DNA of 64,000 bases, from the NCBI GenBank assembly GCA_902801845.1, contig CADCJW010000004.1, forward strand, positions 195,936 through 259,935, in the 5' to 3' direction. The notes beneath the pieces are model-generated. The model did not search any database and had not been told where the DNA came from. It saw only the letters and a program-made list of their open reading frames with translations. Each line of letters starts with the position of its first letter. The first letter of the stretch is position 1. A program made the position numbers and the translations under genes. Positions 24,864 to 33,696 of the stretch are shown piece by piece. The DNA comes from an uncultured Eubacteriales bacterium (GTDB lineage: Bacteria; Bacillota; Clostridia; Christensenellales; CAG-138).

Positions 24864-25844
24864 TTATTCAAACTGACGGGAATACTGGGTGACGTTAGCG
24901 GTGAGAAGCTTCAGGGACTTCACGTAGAGGCGGGCGACCTCCTCCGTCACGGCGATGAAGTCCCGGGCGAACTGGGGCATGGGGTCGTCCCGCCGATAGA
25001 CAAGGGACATGGCGTTCTTTTGCAGGGAATGGCAGATGGGGAAGGAGATCATGCCGTCCAGTTCCTGCTGCCGGTCGAAGAGGGCGATGGGGGAGATGAC
25101 TGCGAGGCCCATGTTCCGCCGGGCCAGCTCGTAGAGAAGGAGCTGGGAGTTGGATTCAAAATAGATGTAGGGCCGGACGCTGCCGTCCAGATAGTATTTG
25201 TCCAGCTGGCGGCGAATGCGGTTGGAGGGCTGGGTGACCAGCAGGGGCAGGCCGTGGAGGGTGCGGATGTCCCGCTCGTTGTTGAGGAAGTGCTGCATCT
25301 CCGATTCCTCGGAGAACTGCGCCCGGAAAAAGCTTTGAGAGGTGCAGCCCCAGATCTCCTCCTCCACCAGGGGCACTTGGACCTCATTCATGCCGGTCTC
25401 TACGTTGACGCCCACGTACATGTCCACCTTGTTCTCCAGTAACAGCCCCTGCAGTACGTCCGTACTGCCGTCCACCAGCTCGATGGTCACGTTGGGGTAA
25501 TTCTTCCGATACCGCTCCATGATCTCGGGCATCATGGCGTTGGCCCGCAGCCGGGCGATGCCAATGCGGATGCGGCCCCGGCAGTTGATGCTGATGTCGT
25601 GGAGGTTGGCCCGTAAGGCCTTTTCGGCGGACAGGATCTGCTGGGCCCAGTACCGCAATTCTTCCCCCTTTTGCGTCAGGGCCAGAACGGGCTTGCGGTG
25701 AAAGAGTTCCGCGTCGTATTCCGCTTCCAGCCGTTGAATGTGGCTGCTGAGGGCCTGTTGGGTGATGAACAGACGCTCCGCCGCCCGGGTGAAGTTCATC
25801 TCCTCCGTGACCACCAGAAAGTATTCCAGACTTCGCAGGTTCAT
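24864..25844 (-). CDS. LysR-family transcriptional regulator
   Basis: This 326-residue regulator has the N-terminal LysR winged helix (MNLRSLEYFLVVTEEMNFTR, AAERLFITQQALSSHIQRLE) and a C-terminal inducer-binding domain from about residue 90. It is transcribed divergently from the aldolase/carboxylate-transporter operon at 26162, so it is the likely activator of that operon, with a substrate or intermediate as coinducer. Two 87-bp repeats with a palindromic CAATAT-AA-ATATTG core lie in the shared intergenic region and are the probable binding sites. Confidence 0.92.
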   Translation of the reverse strand: MNLRSLEYFLVVTEEMNFTRAAERLFITQQALSSHIQRLEAEYDAELFHRKPVLALTQKGEELRYWAQQILSAEKALRANLHDISINCRGRIRIGIARLRANAMMPEIMERYRKNYPNVTIELVDGSTDVLQGLLLENKVDMYVGVNVETGMNEVQVPLVEEEIWGCTSQSFFRAQFSEESEMQHFLNNERDIRTLHGLPLLVTQPSNRIRRQLDKYYLDGSVRPYIYFESNSQLLLYELARRNMGLAVISPIALFDRQQELDGMISFPICHSLQKNAMSLVYRRDDPMPQFARDFIAVTEEVARLYVKSLKLLTANVTQYSRQFE

Positions 25845-25854
25845 AGGACCACCT

Positions 25855-25941
25855 CACAATATAAATATTGTCTAAAACTAAAATTTTTACTGTTTCCCTT
25901 TTGTGCAAGGTCATTGTATCATACCATTGTAAGCAAGTAAA
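25855..25941. repeat. LysR control-region repeat, copy 1
   Basis: This 87-bp block matches 26041-26127 at 71 of 87 positions, ungapped. It contains the perfect palindrome CAATATAAATATTG and a degraded -10 region. It lies immediately upstream of the LysR gene. Confidence 0.75.
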
Positions 25942-25982
25942 TTATTTTTCTTCTTCATAGATAGATCCCTCCAAAAACAAAT

Positions 25983-26025
25983 AGAGCAGGGCCTGCCGCA
26001 GGGGATGAGCGACGGGCCCTGTTCT
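25983..26025. terminator. Hairpin between the two control repeats
   Basis: AGAGCAGGGCC at 25983-25993 pairs with GGCCCTGTTCT at 26015-26025 with one G-U pair. No T-run follows. The sequence resembles the operon's own terminator hairpin at 32180-32221. Confidence 0.5.
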
Positions 26026-26040
26026 ATTCCACACTTGTTT

Positions 26041-26127
26041 CACAAGATAAATATTGTCGAAAACTAAAATATTACCTGTTTCCATTTTGTGACGAGACAT
26101 TGTATTATACTATTGTATTCAAGCAAA
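26041..26127 (+). promoter_or_regulatory. LysR control-region repeat, copy 2 (operon promoter)
   Basis: This is the second copy of the 87-bp block, with CAAGATAAATATTG as the palindromic core. A TATACT -10 element near 26104-26111 and only a poor -35 are consistent with LysR-dependent activation. The first gene starts 34 bases downstream. Confidence 0.65.
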
Positions 26128-26161: not shown

Positions 26162-27169
26162 ATGAGCGTTAAATTGATGGATTGCACGCTGCGGGACGGC
26201 GGAAACGTGGTCGGCAAGGGCTTCAACGCTGAGATCACCGATCTCGTTCTGGATGGACTCACCTCGGCTGGGGTGCCCATCGTGGAGCTGGGCAACGCCG
26301 GCGGCATCGGCGCCTACGAGGTGGCCGGGTTCACCAAGGCGGAGACCGACGAGACCTATTTGAAGATCGCCCAGAAGTACATGGGCCGGGGCACGGAGCT
26401 GGGCATGTTCCTGAACGCCAAACGGTATCTGAAGAAGAGCGTGGACGCGGCCAAGGACGCGGGCCTGGCCTTCCTGCGGGTAGGTGCGGACGCTGGTGAC
26501 GGCGCCATCTCCATTCCCGCCATCAAGGACATCAAGGCGTCCGGCCTCAAGGCTTTCTACTCCGAGATGAAGGCCTACGTCCTCAATGCGGACGAGCTCG
26601 CGGAGGAAGCGAAGATGCTGGAAGACGCGGGCCTCGATATGATCACCATCATGGATTCCGCCGGCACCATGGTCCCCGAGCAGGTAGCTGAATACACCCG
26701 CAAGATGAAGGCGGCGGTGAAGATCCCCGTGGCCTTCCATTGCCACAACAACCTGTACCTCTCTGCCGCCAACGCCATCGCGGCCTACGAGAACGGCGCG
26801 GACATCCTGGACTGCGGTCTCATGGGCATGGCCCGCAGCGCCGGCAACCTGGCCACCGAGGCCTGCGTGGCCCTCATGCGCCGGTACGGCGAGATGCAGG
26901 ACATCGACCTCTATGGCCTCCTCACCTTCGTGGAGCAGCGGCTCATGCCCGCCATGGAGCCCTTCGGTTATCACAATCCAGTGGCCCCCATCGACCTCAT
27001 CTTCGGCCTCTCGGGCTGCCACTCCAGCTTCCTGAAGCGGTATCAGACCGTGGCCGCCGAGACCGGCGTGAATCTGTTCCAGCTGATCGTGGAGGCCTCT
27101 GCCGTCAACCGGAAGGCCCCCTCCGAGGAGCTGATCCGGGACGTGGCCAAAACCATTCTGGAACGATAA
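26162..27169 (+). CDS. DRE-TIM metallolyase, 4-hydroxy-2-oxovalerate aldolase-like
   Basis: This 335-residue protein starts with the DRE-TIM motif DCTLRDGGNV and has the metal-binding HCHNN motif (AFHCHNNLYLSAANAIAAY). GADILDCGLMGMARSAGN follows. The C-terminal part (FGLSGCHSSFLKRY) resembles the aldolase communication region of DmpG/BphI. Family members cleave 4-hydroxy-2-oxo acids to pyruvate and an aldehyde. The acylating aldehyde dehydrogenase that usually partners DmpG is not in this operon, so the aldehyde must go elsewhere or the reaction differs. An HMG-CoA-lyase-like activity is an alternative. Confidence 0.75.
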   Translation: MSVKLMDCTLRDGGNVVGKGFNAEITDLVLDGLTSAGVPIVELGNAGGIGAYEVAGFTKAETDETYLKIAQKYMGRGTELGMFLNAKRYLKKSVDAAKDAGLAFLRVGADAGDGAISIPAIKDIKASGLKAFYSEMKAYVLNADELAEEAKMLEDAGLDMITIMDSAGTMVPEQVAEYTRKMKAAVKIPVAFHCHNNLYLSAANAIAAYENGADILDCGLMGMARSAGNLATEACVALMRRYGEMQDIDLYGLLTFVEQRLMPAMEPFGYHNPVAPIDLIFGLSGCHSSFLKRYQTVAAETGVNLFQLIVEASAVNRKAPSEELIRDVAKTILER

Positions 27170-27224
27170 GCTGTATGCAGCAGAAGCCGGCTTGAATAGA
27201 GCAGACCAAAAAGGAGGAGACCCC

Positions 27225-28049
27225 ATGGGCTATGATCTGACCGGAAGCTTTGATCTGCATATCCACACAGGCCCGGACGTGATCCCGCGGAAGCTGGACG
27301 ATCTGGAGATGGCCCGGCAGGCGGCGGATGCCGGAATGCGAGGCTTTGCGGTCAAGAGCCACGTTTTCCCCACGCCGGGACGGGCGGCCATCCTGCGGGC
27401 GCTGTATCCGGAACTGGATGTTGTGGGCGGCATCGCCCTGAACCGGGAAGTGGGCGGTATCCACGCGGACGCCGTGGAGGCGGCCGCCAAGATGGGGGCA
27501 AGGATGCTGTGGTTCCCCACCATGGATGCCAAAGCCTATCGGAAGGAAAGGAACGATCCCAACTGGGCCGCCGGCCTCACCGCTCTCGACGAGGACGGGA
27601 ACGTTTCCGAGGAAGCGCTGCAGGTCCTGGAAGTGGCCAAGCGATACGACCTGGTGGTCGGCACCGGCCATCTCGGTGGGGAGGAAGCGATCCGGCTGGT
27701 GGAAGCGGGCCATAAGCTGGGCCTCAAACGCATGTGCCTCACCCACGTCACCCTGCCCGTGTGCCAGATGTCCGTCGAGCAGCTGAACCGATGCGTGGCC
27801 TGGGGCGCCATGTCGGAATATTCCTACTGCCACTTGCTCAGCGGAAAATGCTCCATCGAGTACGTCGTTGAACAGATCCGGGCCATCGGAGCGGAGCACG
27901 TTTACCTCAGCACCGATCTGGGCCAGAAGAACAACCCGTATCCGGTGGAAGGGCTTCTCACATTCTGCACTCTTTTGCAGGAGCACGGCATAACGGACAG
28001 CGAGCTGGACCGTATGCTGAAGATAAATCCCCATACGTTGCTTTACTAA
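27225..28049 (+). CDS. DUF6282-type metal-dependent hydrolase-like protein
   Basis: This 274-residue cytoplasmic protein begins FDLHIHTGPDVIPRKLDD, with an H-x-H pair near residue 13 as in amidohydrolase/PHP barrels. GFAVKSHVFPTPGRAA, GTGHLGGEEAIRL and LTHVTLPVC supply further histidines (about residues 40-190) that could complete a metal site. I recognise the pattern as DUF6282, which has no assigned reaction. AAGGAGGAG precedes the ATG at 27225. Its place between an aldolase and a carboxylate transporter suggests it hydrolyses, dehydrates or isomerises the imported compound or an intermediate. Confidence 0.75.
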   Translation: MGYDLTGSFDLHIHTGPDVIPRKLDDLEMARQAADAGMRGFAVKSHVFPTPGRAAILRALYPELDVVGGIALNREVGGIHADAVEAAAKMGARMLWFPTMDAKAYRKERNDPNWAAGLTALDEDGNVSEEALQVLEVAKRYDLVVGTGHLGGEEAIRLVEAGHKLGLKRMCLTHVTLPVCQMSVEQLNRCVAWGAMSEYSYCHLLSGKCSIEYVVEQIRAIGAEHVYLSTDLGQKNNPYPVEGLLTFCTLLQEHGITDSELDRMLKINPHTLLY

Positions 28050-28099
28050 AGACAATCAGGACCAAATCAAGAAAGGTAAAAAAGGAAGGAGAAACCACC

Positions 28100-29122
28100 A
28101 TGAAGAAAATCGTATCCCTCATTCTCGTTTGCGCTCTCGCCCTAACGTTCGTTGCTTGCGGGACCAAGACCGAGCAGACCAGCACCCAGCCCGCCGCTCA
28201 GGTCGAAGGCCTCCCCGCCAAGCCGGCTGACTTCCCGAAGAGCACCATCACCTGCTACGTGGGCTATGCTGCCGGCGGCGGCGTGGACACCGCGGCCCGT
28301 CTGCTCCTCAAGTACGCCCAGAAGTATCTGGATGTTCCCGTCGTCGTTACCAATGTGACCGGTGCTGCCGGTGCCGTTGCGGTCACCCAGGCCCTCTCCA
28401 ATAAGGCGGATGGCACCACCCTGATCTCCATCGCTTCCGGCGCCATGCTGGGCGACATCACCGGCGCGGTCCAGTATGACTTTCTGAAGGATCTGCAGAT
28501 GGTCGCTCTGCAGGATTCCGTTCCCTACTCCCTGGTGTTCCGCAGCGACGACACCCGCTTCTCCACTCCCGAAGAGTTCCTGGCCTATGTGAAGGATCAT
28601 CCCGGTGAACTGACCGTGGGCACCTCCGGCGTCAACAACGCCAACTATTTCGCCACCAAGAGCTTCTTTGAGGACAACGGCATGAAGGTGGAGATCGTTC
28701 CCTTCGGCGGCAGCGCGGAAGCCAAGAGCGGCTTCCTGGGCAAGCATGTGGACCTGTTCTGCGAGACGATCCTGGAGACCATCCAGATGAACCGTGACGG
28801 CAGCGCCACCTTCGTGTGCACCTTCGGCGACGAGCCCTACGTGGAGGGCGTCAAGACCAACAAGGATCTGGGCATCAACATGTCCGTTACCGGCACCTTC
28901 CGTGGCTATGCCTACAAGGCCGGCGTCTCCAAGGAAGTCATCGAGTACCTGTCCGCCATCTTCAAGCTCTGTGAGCAGGATCCCGAATTCATCGCCGAGT
29001 GTGCGAACCTGGGTCTTGACAAGTGCATCAACTATAAGGACCCCGCCGAATCCAGCGCTTTCATGCAGAACGAATACGACAGCTACACCAAGTTCTGCAA
29101 GGAGTTGGGCATCGCCAAATAA
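28100..29122 (+). CDS. Tripartite tricarboxylate transporter binding protein (TctC family)
   Basis: This 340-residue protein is an extracellular solute receptor of the Bug/TctC family. It has a lipoprotein-like signal sequence (MKKIVSLILVCALALTFVAC then GTKTEQ), with Cys at about residue 20. The mature protein has VGYAAGGGVDTAARLL, the carboxylate-binding glycine-rich loop, and VVVTNVTGAAGAVAVTQAL. It should capture an organic acid and hand it to the TctB/TctA membrane pair encoded directly downstream. AAGGAAGGAG precedes the ATG. The ligand cannot be deduced, because the family binds many carboxylates. Confidence 0.9.
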   Translation: MKKIVSLILVCALALTFVACGTKTEQTSTQPAAQVEGLPAKPADFPKSTITCYVGYAAGGGVDTAARLLLKYAQKYLDVPVVVTNVTGAAGAVAVTQALSNKADGTTLISIASGAMLGDITGAVQYDFLKDLQMVALQDSVPYSLVFRSDDTRFSTPEEFLAYVKDHPGELTVGTSGVNNANYFATKSFFEDNGMKVEIVPFGGSAEAKSGFLGKHVDLFCETILETIQMNRDGSATFVCTFGDEPYVEGVKTNKDLGINMSVTGTFRGYAYKAGVSKEVIEYLSAIFKLCEQDPEFIAECANLGLDKCINYKDPAESSAFMQNEYDSYTKFCKELGIAK

Positions 29123-29159
29123 GCTCCCTTCAAACACGTAAGAAAAGAGGAATGGCAAT

Positions 29160-29624
29160 ATGACAAAAAACAATAAAATTGCGGGTGCTGTCCTGCTCGT
29201 GTTCTTTGCCATCGCATTGTTTATGGCCCGGTCGTTCCCGACGCAGTCCTCTTATTTCCCCACCATCATCTGCGTGCTGGGGATACTCCTGAGTGTGATA
29301 CTGATCGTCTCCGCCTTTGTCACGGAAGCCCGCGGCAAGGGGAAGCCGGCCAAGCCTCTGACCTCCAAGGCCAAGAAGATGATCGCGATCATGACCGGCT
29401 TGATCGTTCTGTACGCTATCGGGATGAAGACCATCGGCTTTGCTGTGTCGACGTTCATCTACATCGTCGTTTCGGGACTGATCCTCTATCCGGAGAAGAT
29501 CACGAAGGAGAACAAGAAGCCCATCCTGATCGTGGTTCTTTCGGCGCTGATCGTTTCGGTGCTGATCACCGTGGTCTTCAAGAAGATCCTGTACGTCCCG
29601 CTCCCGTCTGGACTGCTGATTTAA
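29160..29624 (+). CDS. Tripartite tricarboxylate transporter small membrane protein (TctB family)
   Basis: This 154-residue protein has four predicted membrane helices: near residues 9-24, 35-55, 79-96 and 117-138. The size and position between TctC and TctA genes are typical of TctB (DUF1468). It assists the large TctA subunit in sodium- or proton-driven uptake. An AGAGGAATGG segment precedes the start. Confidence 0.87.
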   Translation: MTKNNKIAGAVLLVFFAIALFMARSFPTQSSYFPTIICVLGILLSVILIVSAFVTEARGKGKPAKPLTSKAKKMIAIMTGLIVLYAIGMKTIGFAVSTFIYIVVSGLILYPEKITKENKKPILIVVLSALIVSVLITVVFKKILYVPLPSGLLI

Positions 29625-29640
29625 AGGAGGAAAGCGAACT

Positions 29641-31161
29641 ATGTTATCCAACATTTTACAGGGGTTCGCTACGGCGACTCAGCCGTTGAACCTTCTGATA
29701 ATCGCGCTGGGAACCGTGCTCGGGATCGTGTTCGGCGCTCTTCCCGGCCTGTCCGGCACCATGGGCATCGCGATCCTGCTGCCCATCACCTACGGGATGC
29801 ACCCCACGGCGGCGCTGCTGCTGATGGTTTCCATCTTCTGCGGCTCCCTGTATGGCGGCAGCATCTCGGCGATCCTGCTCTCCACGCCCGGCACGCCCGC
29901 CGCGGCGGCGACGATCTTCGACGGCTATCCTATGACTAAGCAGGGACGCGCCAGTGAAGCGTTGATGGAAGCCGCCATCTCCTCGTTCTGGGGCGGCGTC
30001 GTCAGCCTTATCGCCTTGTTCACCATGGCCCCGGCCATCGCGAAGTTCTCCTTGAAGTTCGGCTCCATCGAAAACTTCATGATCGCCATCTTCGGCCTCA
30101 CGATTATCGCTTCCCTGGCTTCCAAGAACATGCTCAAGGGCCTCATCAGCGGTCTGATCGGCCTTCTGATGGGCTGCGTAGGCATGGACAGCTTCGTGGG
30201 TCACGCCCGCTACACCTTCCACATCGCCTACCTACAGACAGGCATCCAGCTGATCGTTGCCCTGATCGGACTCTTCTCCATCTCCCAGGTGCTGACGCTG
30301 GCCTCCAGCGACAACAGGGCCATCGTGGACAAGGAGATGATCAAGAACCTGAAACCGGCGAAATTCACGCTGAAGGACATCTGCCGGTACCCCCTGACCT
30401 ACCTGCGCTCGGGCATCATCGGCACCATCGTCGGGATCATCCCCGGCGCGGGCGGCAGCATCGCTGCGTTCCTGGGGTACAATGAAGCCAAGCGCGCTTC
30501 CAAGACTCCTGAGCTCTTCGGCACCGGCCTTCGTGAGGGCGTGGGTGCTTCCGAATCCGCCAACAACGCGGTCTCCGGCGGCGCTCTGATCCCCATGCTG
30601 ACCTTGGGCATTCCCGGCAGCACGGCCTGCGCCGTCATGCTGGGCGGCATGATGGTCCATGGCCTTCTGCCCGGCAACGACCTGTTCACCGTCCAGGCGG
30701 GTATCATCTATCCCGTGATGTCCGGCATGTTCTATGCGAATTTGGCCTTTATGATCATCGGCATCACCTGCGCCAAGTACTTCGCCTACATTGCCCGGGT
30801 GCCCATCTACATCCTGACCCCGATCATCGTGGTGTTCTGCGCCGTCGGCGCCTTCGCCATCAGCAACTCCATGATCGACGTCTACGTGATGATCCTCTTC
30901 GGCGTCGTTGGATTCTTCCTGATCCACTTCGATTTCGACGTGACGTCGGTGGTCCTGGGCCTGATCCTGGGGCCCATCGCAGAGGGCGGCTTCGGTCGTG
31001 CCATCATGATCAATGGCGGCGTGGCCGGCGCCTTCGGCAGCATCTTCAAGAGCCCGATCTGCATCATCCTGCTGCTCATCTCCGTGGTCTCCCTGTTTGC
31101 GCCCCTCATTCGGGAATTCGCCAGCAAGAAGACTGGGAAGAAGCTGCCGGACGCTGAGTGA
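29641..31161 (+). CDS. Tripartite tricarboxylate transporter permease (TctA family)
   Basis: This 506-residue polytopic protein forms the transport path. The signature GIVFGALPGLSGTMGIAILLP near residue 30 and the repeated motif GIIPGAGGSIAAFLGYNEAKR near residue 260 are the family's paired glycine/proline-rich re-entrant loops. AAGGAGG lies just before the ATG. The gene follows tctB by 16 bases and precedes the dehydrogenase gene by a few bases, so one transcript is likely. Confidence 0.93.
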   Translation: MLSNILQGFATATQPLNLLIIALGTVLGIVFGALPGLSGTMGIAILLPITYGMHPTAALLLMVSIFCGSLYGGSISAILLSTPGTPAAAATIFDGYPMTKQGRASEALMEAAISSFWGGVVSLIALFTMAPAIAKFSLKFGSIENFMIAIFGLTIIASLASKNMLKGLISGLIGLLMGCVGMDSFVGHARYTFHIAYLQTGIQLIVALIGLFSISQVLTLASSDNRAIVDKEMIKNLKPAKFTLKDICRYPLTYLRSGIIGTIVGIIPGAGGSIAAFLGYNEAKRASKTPELFGTGLREGVGASESANNAVSGGALIPMLTLGIPGSTACAVMLGGMMVHGLLPGNDLFTVQAGIIYPVMSGMFYANLAFMIIGITCAKYFAYIARVPIYILTPIIVVFCAVGAFAISNSMIDVYVMILFGVVGFFLIHFDFDVTSVVLGLILGPIAEGGFGRAIMINGGVAGAFGSIFKSPICIILLLISVVSLFAPLIREFASKKTGKKLPDAE

Positions 31162-31179
31162 GCCATGAGGGATACGCCA

Positions 31180-32148
31180 ATGACGAACGTGATCCTGGCC
31201 GGACAATACCCGGCCCACACCTTCGAGACCCTGAAAGAGTTGCTGGGGGATCTGCCCGTGACATTGAAGGCTGTGGACACCCCCGAAGCCTACGAGGCCA
31301 TGACGGATGCCGAGATCATGATCCTGCGGATCTTCAAGGCCCCCGAGGCGGTCATCGCCCGGAACCCAAAGCTAAAGATGATCATGCGCTGGGGCGCGGG
31401 CTTCGACTCAGTAGATATCGAGACGGCGGGGAAGCGGGGTATCTTGGTGACCAACACCCCCGGCGCCAACGCCGACGCCGTGTCCGAGCTCGCTGTGCTC
31501 CTGATGCTGGCCGTGGGCCGGAAGCTGGTGTGCCATACGGACTGTCTGCGCAAGGGCGACTGGAGCAAGAACGAGTTCATCAACAGCTCTTACACCCTCA
31601 TGAACAAGACCGTGGGCATTTTAGGCGCCGGGAACATCGGCCGGAAGGTAGCCCAGCGGGCCCAGGCCTTCGGAGCCAAGACCGTGTATTACGATCCCTT
31701 CCGTCTCCCCGAGGAGCGGGAAAAGGCCTTCCACTTGAAGTATATGCCCCTGGACGAACTGCTGCCCATCTGCGACGTGATCACGTTGCACCTGCCGCTG
31801 ACCGATGAGACGAAGCACCTCATCGACGGGGCCGCCATCGAAAAGATGAAGCCCGGCGCCATCGTGATCAACACGGCCCGGGGCGGCCTGGTGGACGACT
31901 GCGCCCTCTTTGCTGCGGTCCAGAGCGGCAAGCTTTTGGGCGCGGGCCTCGATGGTGTGGAGCGGGAGCCCCTACAGCCCGACGACGAGCTGTTCACCAA
32001 CGACAACATCATCGTGACGCCCCATGTGGGCGGCGGTACCGCCGACATCGGTGAGGCCATCATGCCCATGCTGGTGGAGGATATCCGCCTCTTCCTGACC
32101 GGCGACCAACCTCGGTTCGTGGTGAACCGCCAGTATCTCGCCAAATAA
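31180..32148 (+). CDS. D-2-hydroxyacid dehydrogenase (NAD-dependent)
   Basis: This 322-residue enzyme has the two-domain D-isomer hydroxyacid dehydrogenase fold. The NAD-binding GILGAGNIGRKVAQRAQAFG lies in the middle. The catalytic Arg is in NTARGGLVDD, an acidic residue follows in LDGVEREPL, and His is in VTPHVGGGT. The ATG at 31180 is preferred to the one at 31165 because GAGGGA ends seven bases before it. Phosphoglycerate-dehydrogenase-like proteins share this fold, but the operon position suggests reduction of a 2-oxo acid or oxidation of a 2-hydroxy acid in the transported compound's pathway. Confidence 0.87.
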   Translation: MTNVILAGQYPAHTFETLKELLGDLPVTLKAVDTPEAYEAMTDAEIMILRIFKAPEAVIARNPKLKMIMRWGAGFDSVDIETAGKRGILVTNTPGANADAVSELAVLLMLAVGRKLVCHTDCLRKGDWSKNEFINSSYTLMNKTVGILGAGNIGRKVAQRAQAFGAKTVYYDPFRLPEEREKAFHLKYMPLDELLPICDVITLHLPLTDETKHLIDGAAIEKMKPGAIVINTARGGLVDDCALFAAVQSGKLLGAGLDGVEREPLQPDDELFTNDNIIVTPHVGGGTADIGEAIMPMLVEDIRLFLTGDQPRFVVNRQYLAK

Positions 32149-32742: not shown

Positions 32743-33051
32743 CTATACAAGATTTCGGTATTCCTGCCTTGCGTCCACGACGGCGTGAAGAATGACCGTT
32801 TTCTTTTCTTCGTACACCTTGTAAAAGATCAGGTGCCGCTCGACGATCAATACTCGATAACCCTGCTTCCTGAGAGTCGAATAGCGCGGCGTTACACCGG
32901 AATACGGAAACTCCGCAAGGTTCATCACGGCGGATTCCAGCTTGTCGAGATAATTCAGAGCAGTATCGATGCTCGAATCGGCGGCAATGTACTGGATCAG
33001 ATCATACAGCTGATCGTTGGCTTTATCGGTGCGCAGGATTCGATAACTCAT
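32743..33051 (-). CDS. RelE/ParE-family toxin
   Basis: This 102-residue basic protein has the RelE/ParE fold signature: an N-terminal helix pair (TDKANDQLYDLIQYIAAD and TALNYLDKLESAVMNLAEFP) and a beta-sheet core with GYRVLIVERHLIFYKVYEE. The C-terminus ends in HAVVDARQEYRNLV. Such proteins inhibit gyrase (ParE) or cleave mRNA on the ribosome (RelE); the sequence does not decide which. Its ATG overlaps the antitoxin stop by four bases. Confidence 0.87.
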   Translation of the reverse strand: MSYRILRTDKANDQLYDLIQYIAADSSIDTALNYLDKLESAVMNLAEFPYSGVTPRYSTLRKQGYRVLIVERHLIFYKVYEEKKTVILHAVVDARQEYRNLV

Positions 33052-33326
33052 CCGTTCTTCCTTTCGGTCAGACGCGCGCGAAGATCACGGAAGGTTTCTT
33101 CGACAGGGGCGACGCGATCAGCGGCAACGTCCGCTTCACTATCGGCGAGCATCCGCAAAAGCTCCAACTCCGCTTGCATTTGGCGGTATTCCTGCAAATT
33201 CAGAACAGCCGTATCACCGCGACCGTTGACCGTGATAATCACCGGCTGGCGGGACTGCTTGCAGGTTTTTGATATCTCGGCATAATGATTTCTCAGATCA
33301 GCCGACGGACGGATCATTTCTTCCAT
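33048..33326 (-). CDS. Phd/YefM-family antitoxin
   Basis: This 92-residue protein has the Phd/YefM N-terminal DNA-binding fold (RPSADLRNHYAEISKTCKQS and PVIITVNGRGDTAVLNLQEY) and a C-terminal tail that would wrap the toxin. The ATG at 33326 has AAGGAGG nine bases upstream and is preferred over the one at 33353, which overlaps the ribosome binding site. It precedes the toxin gene with an ATGA overlap. A palindrome overlapping its promoter suggests the usual autorepression. Confidence 0.87.
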   Translation of the reverse strand: MEEMIRPSADLRNHYAEISKTCKQSRQPVIITVNGRGDTAVLNLQEYRQMQAELELLRMLADSEADVAADRVAPVEETFRDLRARLTERKNG

Positions 33327-33353
33327 AGGTTTCGACCTCCTTTTGATAGTCAA

Positions 33354-33483: not shown

Positions 33484-33696
33484 TTATTCCCTCTCCGTCA
33501 CCGTACAATCCATGCCTAAAAAGGTTGCGATCCGGATCGCCTTTTCCAGTTCGATCGTCGGCTTTCCGTTTTCAAGGTCGGACAGAAAGCTGACGCTTAT
33601 TCCGGTAACCGCGGATAGGTACGCCTGAGTATACCCCAGCTGTTTCCGTCTTTTGCGGATCGCTTCTCCGAACGATTTTGCATCTGTTACGATCAT
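33484..33696 (-). CDS. Small XRE-family helix-turn-helix regulator (HipB-like)
   Basis: This 70-residue protein is almost entirely an XRE helix-turn-helix: FGEAIRKRRKQLGYTQAYLSAVTGISVSFLSDLENGKPTIE, followed by a short C-terminal strand (FLGMDCTVTERE) as in HipB-type antitoxins. No HipA kinase gene lies next to it; downstream is a 130-base gap and then the Phd/ParE operon in the same direction. Two matching palindromes bracket its promoter, strongly suggesting autoregulation. Confidence 0.85.
   Translation of the reverse strand: MIVTDAKSFGEAIRKRRKQLGYTQAYLSAVTGISVSFLSDLENGKPTIELEKAIRIATFLGMDCTVTERE

Follow-up and report, generated by a model that had tools for sequence, protein, structure and literature searches.

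An aldolase and 2-hydroxyacid dehydrogenase gene module accompanied by a DUF6282 gene in an uncultured Eubacteriales bacterium, and its recurrence in other genomes

The window analysed here is a 64,000-nucleotide (nt) stretch of contig CADCJW010000004.1 (assembly GCA_902801845.1) from an uncultured Eubacteriales bacterium, and it carries an operon that encodes a DRE-TIM pyruvate-aldolase-like enzyme and a D-2-hydroxyacid dehydrogenase together with a DUF6282 protein and a tripartite tricarboxylate transporter (TTT). This module is real and recurrent and, as far as the literature searched shows, undescribed; it is built from known kinds of enzyme and pathway and represents no new category. Its recurrent core is the aldolase, a 2-hydroxyacid dehydrogenase (2HADH) and an organic-anion transporter; DUF6282 is accessory, and the transporter class is swapped freely. 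Judging from its sequence, the aldolase is a separate DRE-TIM subfamily with Asn and His in place of the His and Tyr of DmpG/BphI-type enzymes, referred to below as N/H aldolases. We tentatively propose that the module serves an undescribed anaerobic breakdown of a 2,4-dihydroxy (di)carboxylate or its lactone in gut and rumen Clostridia and Synergistaceae, using this new aldolase subfamily, joined in some versions by a DUF6282 lactonase. This proposal, taken jointly with the operon being a LysR-controlled catabolic unit for an imported carboxylic acid, is plausible but falls somewhat short of an even chance.

Operon Organization

All the genes that the initial annotation had placed in a six-gene plus-strand operon with a divergent LysR gene are present according to Pfam and NCBIfam, in the following arrangement.

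24864-25844, minus strand: LysR-family regulator, divergent to the operon (PF00126 and PF03466)
26162-27169, plus strand: DRE-TIM pyruvate-aldolase-like enzyme (PF00682, E 4e-29; weak PF07836, 28.7 bits)
27225-28049, plus strand: DUF6282 protein (PF19799, E 1e-64; open reading frame opens at TTG 27192)
28100-29122, plus strand: TctC solute-binding lipoprotein (PF03401, E 1e-22; lipobox FVAC)
29160-29624, plus strand: TctB small membrane subunit (PF07331, E 6e-19)
29641-31161, plus strand: TctA large membrane subunit (PF01970, E 1.5e-146)
31180-32148, plus strand: D-2-hydroxyacid dehydrogenase (PF02826, E 8e-60; PF00389, E 1e-22; open reading frame opens at 31165)

The likelier start of DUF6282 is ATG 27225, preceded by AAAGGAGG, and that of the dehydrogenase is ATG 31180. 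Gaps of 16-55 nt separate the plus-strand genes, a spacing as in a single operon. The adjacent TctA, TctB and TctC genes make up a complete TTT set. Comparison with solved structures places TctC nearest to a TTT binding protein and BugD, and its ligand is not deducible from this homology.

Recurrence of the Module

Relatives of the window aldolase occur in Lachnospiraceae (the family of Clostridium symbiosum, which has two copies), in Synergistaceae, in the family of genome G427 and in one further genome of the window's order; no aldolase of the N/H type was found in the plasmids searched. Gene neighborhoods were counted in 28 N/H aldolase loci, which are not independent samples, and in five DmpG-type control loci. 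A 2HADH gene lies within 7 kb of the aldolase in 22 of the 28 loci, or in 22 of 25 when three loci cut by contig ends are left aside, and an organic-anion transporter is found in 20. The transporter classes, which may overlap, are TTT (seven loci), GltS-like (six), MFS (five), TRAP (four) and CitMHS (one). This exchange argues against deducing the substrate from TctC alone, and a reading of the substrate from the transporter was therefore dropped. LysR genes occur in 13 loci, DUF6282 in four, an Ldh_2 dehydrogenase in four and a convincing aminotransferase in three. An acylating aldehyde dehydrogenase is found in none of the 28 loci, as against all five DmpG-type loci; its absence from the window operon, already pointed out in the initial annotation, is thus shared by the related loci.

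The accessory enzymes vary. Loci L154 and L161-L163 carry an extra dehydrogenase of the malate/L-lactate type (Ldh_2), and L166, L168 and L169 have an aminotransferase and lack a 2HADH, and the Ldh_2 enzyme or class I/II aminotransferase added in L154, L161-L163, L166 and L168 is a hint that more than one substrate may feed into this aldolase family. The presence of an aminotransferase without a 2HADH points to the formation of a 2-oxo acid ahead of the aldolase; most loci would start from a hydroxy acid, and L166, L168 and L169 from an amino acid.

The region between the LysR and aldolase genes holds one direct repeat, whose two copies are 82% identical; both contain a CTGTT box and a ACAATATAAATATTGT-like palindrome.

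25854-25941, plus strand: operator/promoter-like element, copy 1 (88 nt; palindrome ACAATATAAATATTGT near its start)
26040-26127, plus strand: operator/promoter-like element, copy 2 (88 nt; beside the aldolase gene)

These two copies are the sole sites of this sequence in the source genome, and a G+C-rich hairpin (25980-26028) lies between them. The same layout, ACAA-N8-TTGT followed by CTGTT and an A+T-rich -10-like box, is also seen in C. symbiosum (L132) and Synergistaceae (L009, L156, L158 and L159), upstream either of the aldolase gene or of the transporter gene that heads the operon. In addition, LysR genes of 30-47% identity stand divergently beside the aldolase in L009, L132, L152, L153, L156, L158 and L159. 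This conserved footprint is a likely LysR operator and supports a dedicated LysR-controlled unit. Because the gene set recurs, with a varying transporter, in other families and another phylum, and because the operator between LysR and aldolase is conserved, the set is not a chance assembly. The recurrence expected in the initial annotation therefore holds for the aldolase-2HADH core, but the transporter varies and DUF6282 is limited to four of the 28 loci.

The N/H Aldolase Subfamily

The aldolase had been called DmpG-like, a name that does not stand: its active site differs (N15 and H287), and its TIGR03217 score of 176.7 bits does not reach the cut-off of 286 bits. Among the members scored, its relatives reach 184-208 bits, as against 540-542 bits for DmpG-type controls, and the window aldolase is approximately 31% identical to DmpG-type enzymes over its whole length. 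Active sites were compared in an alignment of 28 DmpG-type proteins with 29 family rows, which are 45-100% identical to the window aldolase and include it twice, as query and as L049. The position of BphI His20, which we take to be the catalytic base in BphI and DmpG, is Asn (N15) in 29/29 family rows and His in 28/28 controls, and that of Tyr290 is His (H287) in all 27 complete family members and Tyr in 28/28 controls. The metal ligands D12, H193 and H195 are invariant in the family, and the PF00682 domain and a TLRDG motif are present. Two further residues, K137 (in MKxY) and R225 (in GMARS), are conserved in the N/H aldolases, have no counterpart in DmpG types and may be fit to bind a second carboxylate. 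The stretches around BphI Leu87 and Leu89 are replaced as well; in BphI, stereospecificity is set by Tyr290 and Leu87, and the length of the accepted aldehyde by Leu89 (review, PMC3962088). In one locus (L153, genome G888), the N/H aldolase frame is broken by an in-frame stop and split in two, and the adjoining 2HADH gene is intact.

The Partner Dehydrogenase

The window dehydrogenase is, by its sequence features, an NAD-type D-2-hydroxyacid dehydrogenase resembling PGDH and glyoxylate reductase, which are its nearest solved structures. It has a GAGNIG motif, an Asp after beta-2 and the catalytic Arg and His, the latter two being conserved in 19/19 aligned dehydrogenases. The dehydrogenases that accompany N/H aldolases form three clades that are 24-35% identical to one another, and the pairing of aldolase and dehydrogenase thus arose more than once.

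DUF6282: Predicted Fold and Genomic Settings

Sequence and profile searches of PDB with DUF6282 gave nothing useful beyond a weak match to a phosphotriesterase homologue. An AlphaFold2 model built from four sequences (predicted local distance difference test, pLDDT, 85.3; predicted template-modelling score 0.86) predicts an amidohydrolase-superfamily barrel. Foldseek matched it best to phosphotriesterase-like lactonases (6jst, E 2.6e-8, template-modelling score 0.62), and VIA-align gave Z 20.4 with dihydroorotase 1xrf (root-mean-square deviation 3.2, 239 aligned) and Z 19 with a probable 2-pyrone-4,6-dicarboxylate hydrolase. Seven residues are invariant among 32 members (H23, H25, K55, H57, H160, H185 and D242, numbered from the 27192 start), forming a pattern of HxH, Lys-x-His, two more His and a late Asp. 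H23, H25, H160, H185 and D242 appear to match the HxH/His/His/Asp metal ligands of amidohydrolases. The invariant Lys (K55) lies early in the chain, and no strand-4 Lys is seen in the alignment. We propose that DUF6282 is a metal-dependent ring-opening hydrolase, possibly a lactonase; many of its fold relatives open rings, but a shared fold shows no function. The earlier suggestion that it opens a lactone or cyclic form gains support from the predicted fold, through its likeness to lactonases and dihydroorotase, but the protein is accessory to a core formed by the aldolase-dehydrogenase pair.

DUF6282 stands 30-59 nt from an N/H aldolase gene in three lineages (the window, L079 and L155) and 2.5 kb off in L009. 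More widely, 17 of 49 DUF6282 loci have an N/H aldolase-, RraA-, HpcH- or homocitrate-synthase-like gene within 6 kb. In 30 DUF6282 genomes, RraA-like or HpcH/HpaI genes within 6 kb number six as against 0.27 expected, an approximately 23-fold enrichment (Poisson P 4e-7, uncorrected for kinship or catabolic-gene clustering). C. symbiosum locus L007 (4276-10825) contains LysR, RraA, two 2HADH genes, a CitMHS transporter and DUF6282; it looks like a counterpart of the window operon built around another aldolase, in the same genome that has two N/H aldolases. One of its dehydrogenases is 70% identical to the N/H aldolase partner in L154, and the N/H aldolase and the RraA-type gene thus seem to fill the same slot.

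Other settings are different in kind, and the DUF6282 family is not tied to a single pathway. In L080, L082, L084 and L087 (genomes G437, G169, G105 and G243), DUF6282 adjoins subunits of a molybdenum hydroxylase of the xanthine dehydrogenase type; the first three also have a DHO_dh/4Fe-4S protein, PucR and a relative of Asp/Glu racemase, a setting that looks like an N-heterocycle breakdown cluster. On Thermus oshimai plasmid pTHEOS01 (L011), it is found with a PIG-L deacetylase, an RraA-type aldolase, catechol 2,3-dioxygenase and 4-hydroxybenzoate 3-monooxygenase, where it is probably part of an aromatic ring-cleavage pathway.

Proposed Route and Alternatives

The substrate would be an imported acid with a 2-hydroxyl group, probably a 2,4-dihydroxy acid with a likely second carboxylate, and/or its gamma-lactone; both the transporter classes and the additional cationic residues of the aldolase favor a dicarboxylate. 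TctCBA would take up the acid or lactone, and DUF6282, where present, would open the lactone. The NAD-type D-2-hydroxyacid dehydrogenase would then oxidize C2 to give a 4-hydroxy-2-oxo acid, which the N/H aldolase would cleave to pyruvate and an oxo acid such as glyoxylate, pyruvate or oxaloacetate. An oxo-acid product would need no acylating aldehyde dehydrogenase. The aminotransferase or Ldh_2 enzyme of some loci fits as an alternative way to the 2-oxo acid ahead of the aldolase. We infer the substrate, direction and order of every one of these reactions. The reverse chemistry has been carried out in vitro, in that pyruvate-aldolase adducts were reduced at C2 to 2,4-dihydroxy acids, which lactonized on work-up to 2-hydroxy-4-butyrolactones (PMC10127515). 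In the literature searched, which took in DRE-TIM aldolases, 4-hydroxyglutamate and sulfolactate, no pathway matches this gene set, in agreement with the initial annotation, and no paper names DUF6282. Of the pathway first envisaged, then, the carboxylate-catabolic operon is retained, and the DmpG-like aldolase and the place of DUF6282 in the core are not.

Several observations weigh against this route. Some loci hold two kinds of dehydrogenase, so that the aldolase could come first and the 2HADH second: cleavage of a 4-hydroxy-2-oxo dicarboxylate would yield pyruvate and glyoxylate or a similar oxo acid, which the 2HADH would then reduce, recycling NADH in a fermenter. This order is rather unlikely but deserves attention, since glyoxylate reductases are among the nearest solved relatives of the dehydrogenase and the Ldh_2 enzyme of L161-L163 could do the oxidation; the loci with an aminotransferase and no 2HADH (L166, L168 and L169), however, suit a step that makes a 2-oxo acid better than the reduction of a product. 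Furthermore, the Asn at the His20 position replaces the putative base, so that retro-aldol activity is not assured, and the aldolase model predicted from two sequences is poor (pLDDT 62), which leaves the placing of K137 and R225 to the alignment. The DRE-TIM enzyme might instead carry out other metal-enolate chemistry, as a Claisen-type lyase/synthase or a decarboxylase. A homocitrate-synthase-like relative (L099) has Gln at the His20 position, and the DmpG communication domain is weak in N/H aldolases (19-29 bits, as against 111 bits in a DmpG type); yet the closest solved structures are all 4-hydroxy-2-oxovalerate aldolases, and an RraA-type gene replaces the enzyme in L007, which makes such chemistry improbable.

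The part given to DUF6282 is likewise open to challenge, as it occurs in so few aldolase loci and as its many genes in other settings, such as the molybdenum hydroxylase clusters, leave room for a reaction other than lactone opening. It could be a passenger with a cyclic-amide substrate of its own, in a pathway formed by aldolase, dehydrogenase and transporter alone, and its proximity to molybdenum hydroxylases, DHODH and PucR in several loci would agree with this. We give this view little credence, given the short distances to the N/H aldolase in three lineages, the 2.5-kb distance in L009 and the enrichment near pyruvate-aldolase genes of other folds. An ordinary meta-cleavage module for 4-hydroxy-2-oxovalerate whose partner was lost could be read from PF00682 and the weak PF07836 match, but it is very improbable and already contradicted: the identity was rejected on the TIGR03217 score, the family-wide replacement of His20 and Tyr290 and the lack of the acylating partner in all 28 loci.

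Since N/H aldolases are nearest to 4-hydroxy-2-oxovalerate aldolase and yet fall below its cut-off, that name is easily misapplied to them; the two-residue signature and the conserved partner dehydrogenase define a separate family with testable chemistry. The proposed route, if true, would provide a first function for the DUF6282 family and an aldolase with altered acceptor specificity that is useful in biocatalysis, and it would bring to light a carbon source used by anaerobes of the rumen and gut. A ready test organism is C. symbiosum, a gut species in culture that has two aldolase copies and the RraA version.

Neighboring Genes

Downstream of the operon, a small minus-strand gene pair (32743-33353) resembles, as judged by eye, a RelE/ParE-type toxin with a Phd/YefM-type antitoxin, and a small XRE-like regulator (33484-33696, minus strand) lies close to it.

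Comparison with Known Systems

The window aldolase shares with DmpG, BphI and MhpE (TIGR03217) the DRE-TIM barrel, the R-D-G motif and the Asp/His/His metal ligands, but differs in the changes from His20 to Asn and from Tyr290 to His, the replaced Leu87/Leu89 stretch and the extra K137 and R225. N/H aldolases also differ in their weak communication domain and in their partners, which are a 2HADH and carboxylate transporters rather than an acylating aldehyde dehydrogenase. RraA-type HMG/CHA aldolases, whose fold is unrelated to that of the DRE-TIM enzyme, adjoin DUF6282 in L091 and L011 and, in L007, DUF6282 together with 2HADH and a citrate-type transporter.

DUF6282 has a predicted amidohydrolase-superfamily fold in common with phosphotriesterase-like lactonases (GkaP and drPLL), dihydroorotase and 2-pyrone-4,6-dicarboxylate hydrolase, and its HxH, two further His and late Asp would occupy their metal-ligand places; it is only 9-16% identical to them, and its invariant Lys belongs to the early Lys-x-His, whereas in phosphotriesterase-like lactonases a carbamylated Lys on strand 4 bridges two metals. 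Finally, a tentative parallel is offered by modules for sulfolactate uptake and oxidation, which combine a TTT transporter with paired hydroxyacid dehydrogenases. The window operon is similar in its TTT importer and 2-hydroxyacid dehydrogenase, to which some N/H aldolase loci add Ldh_2, but it has an aldolase where the C-S lyase would be.

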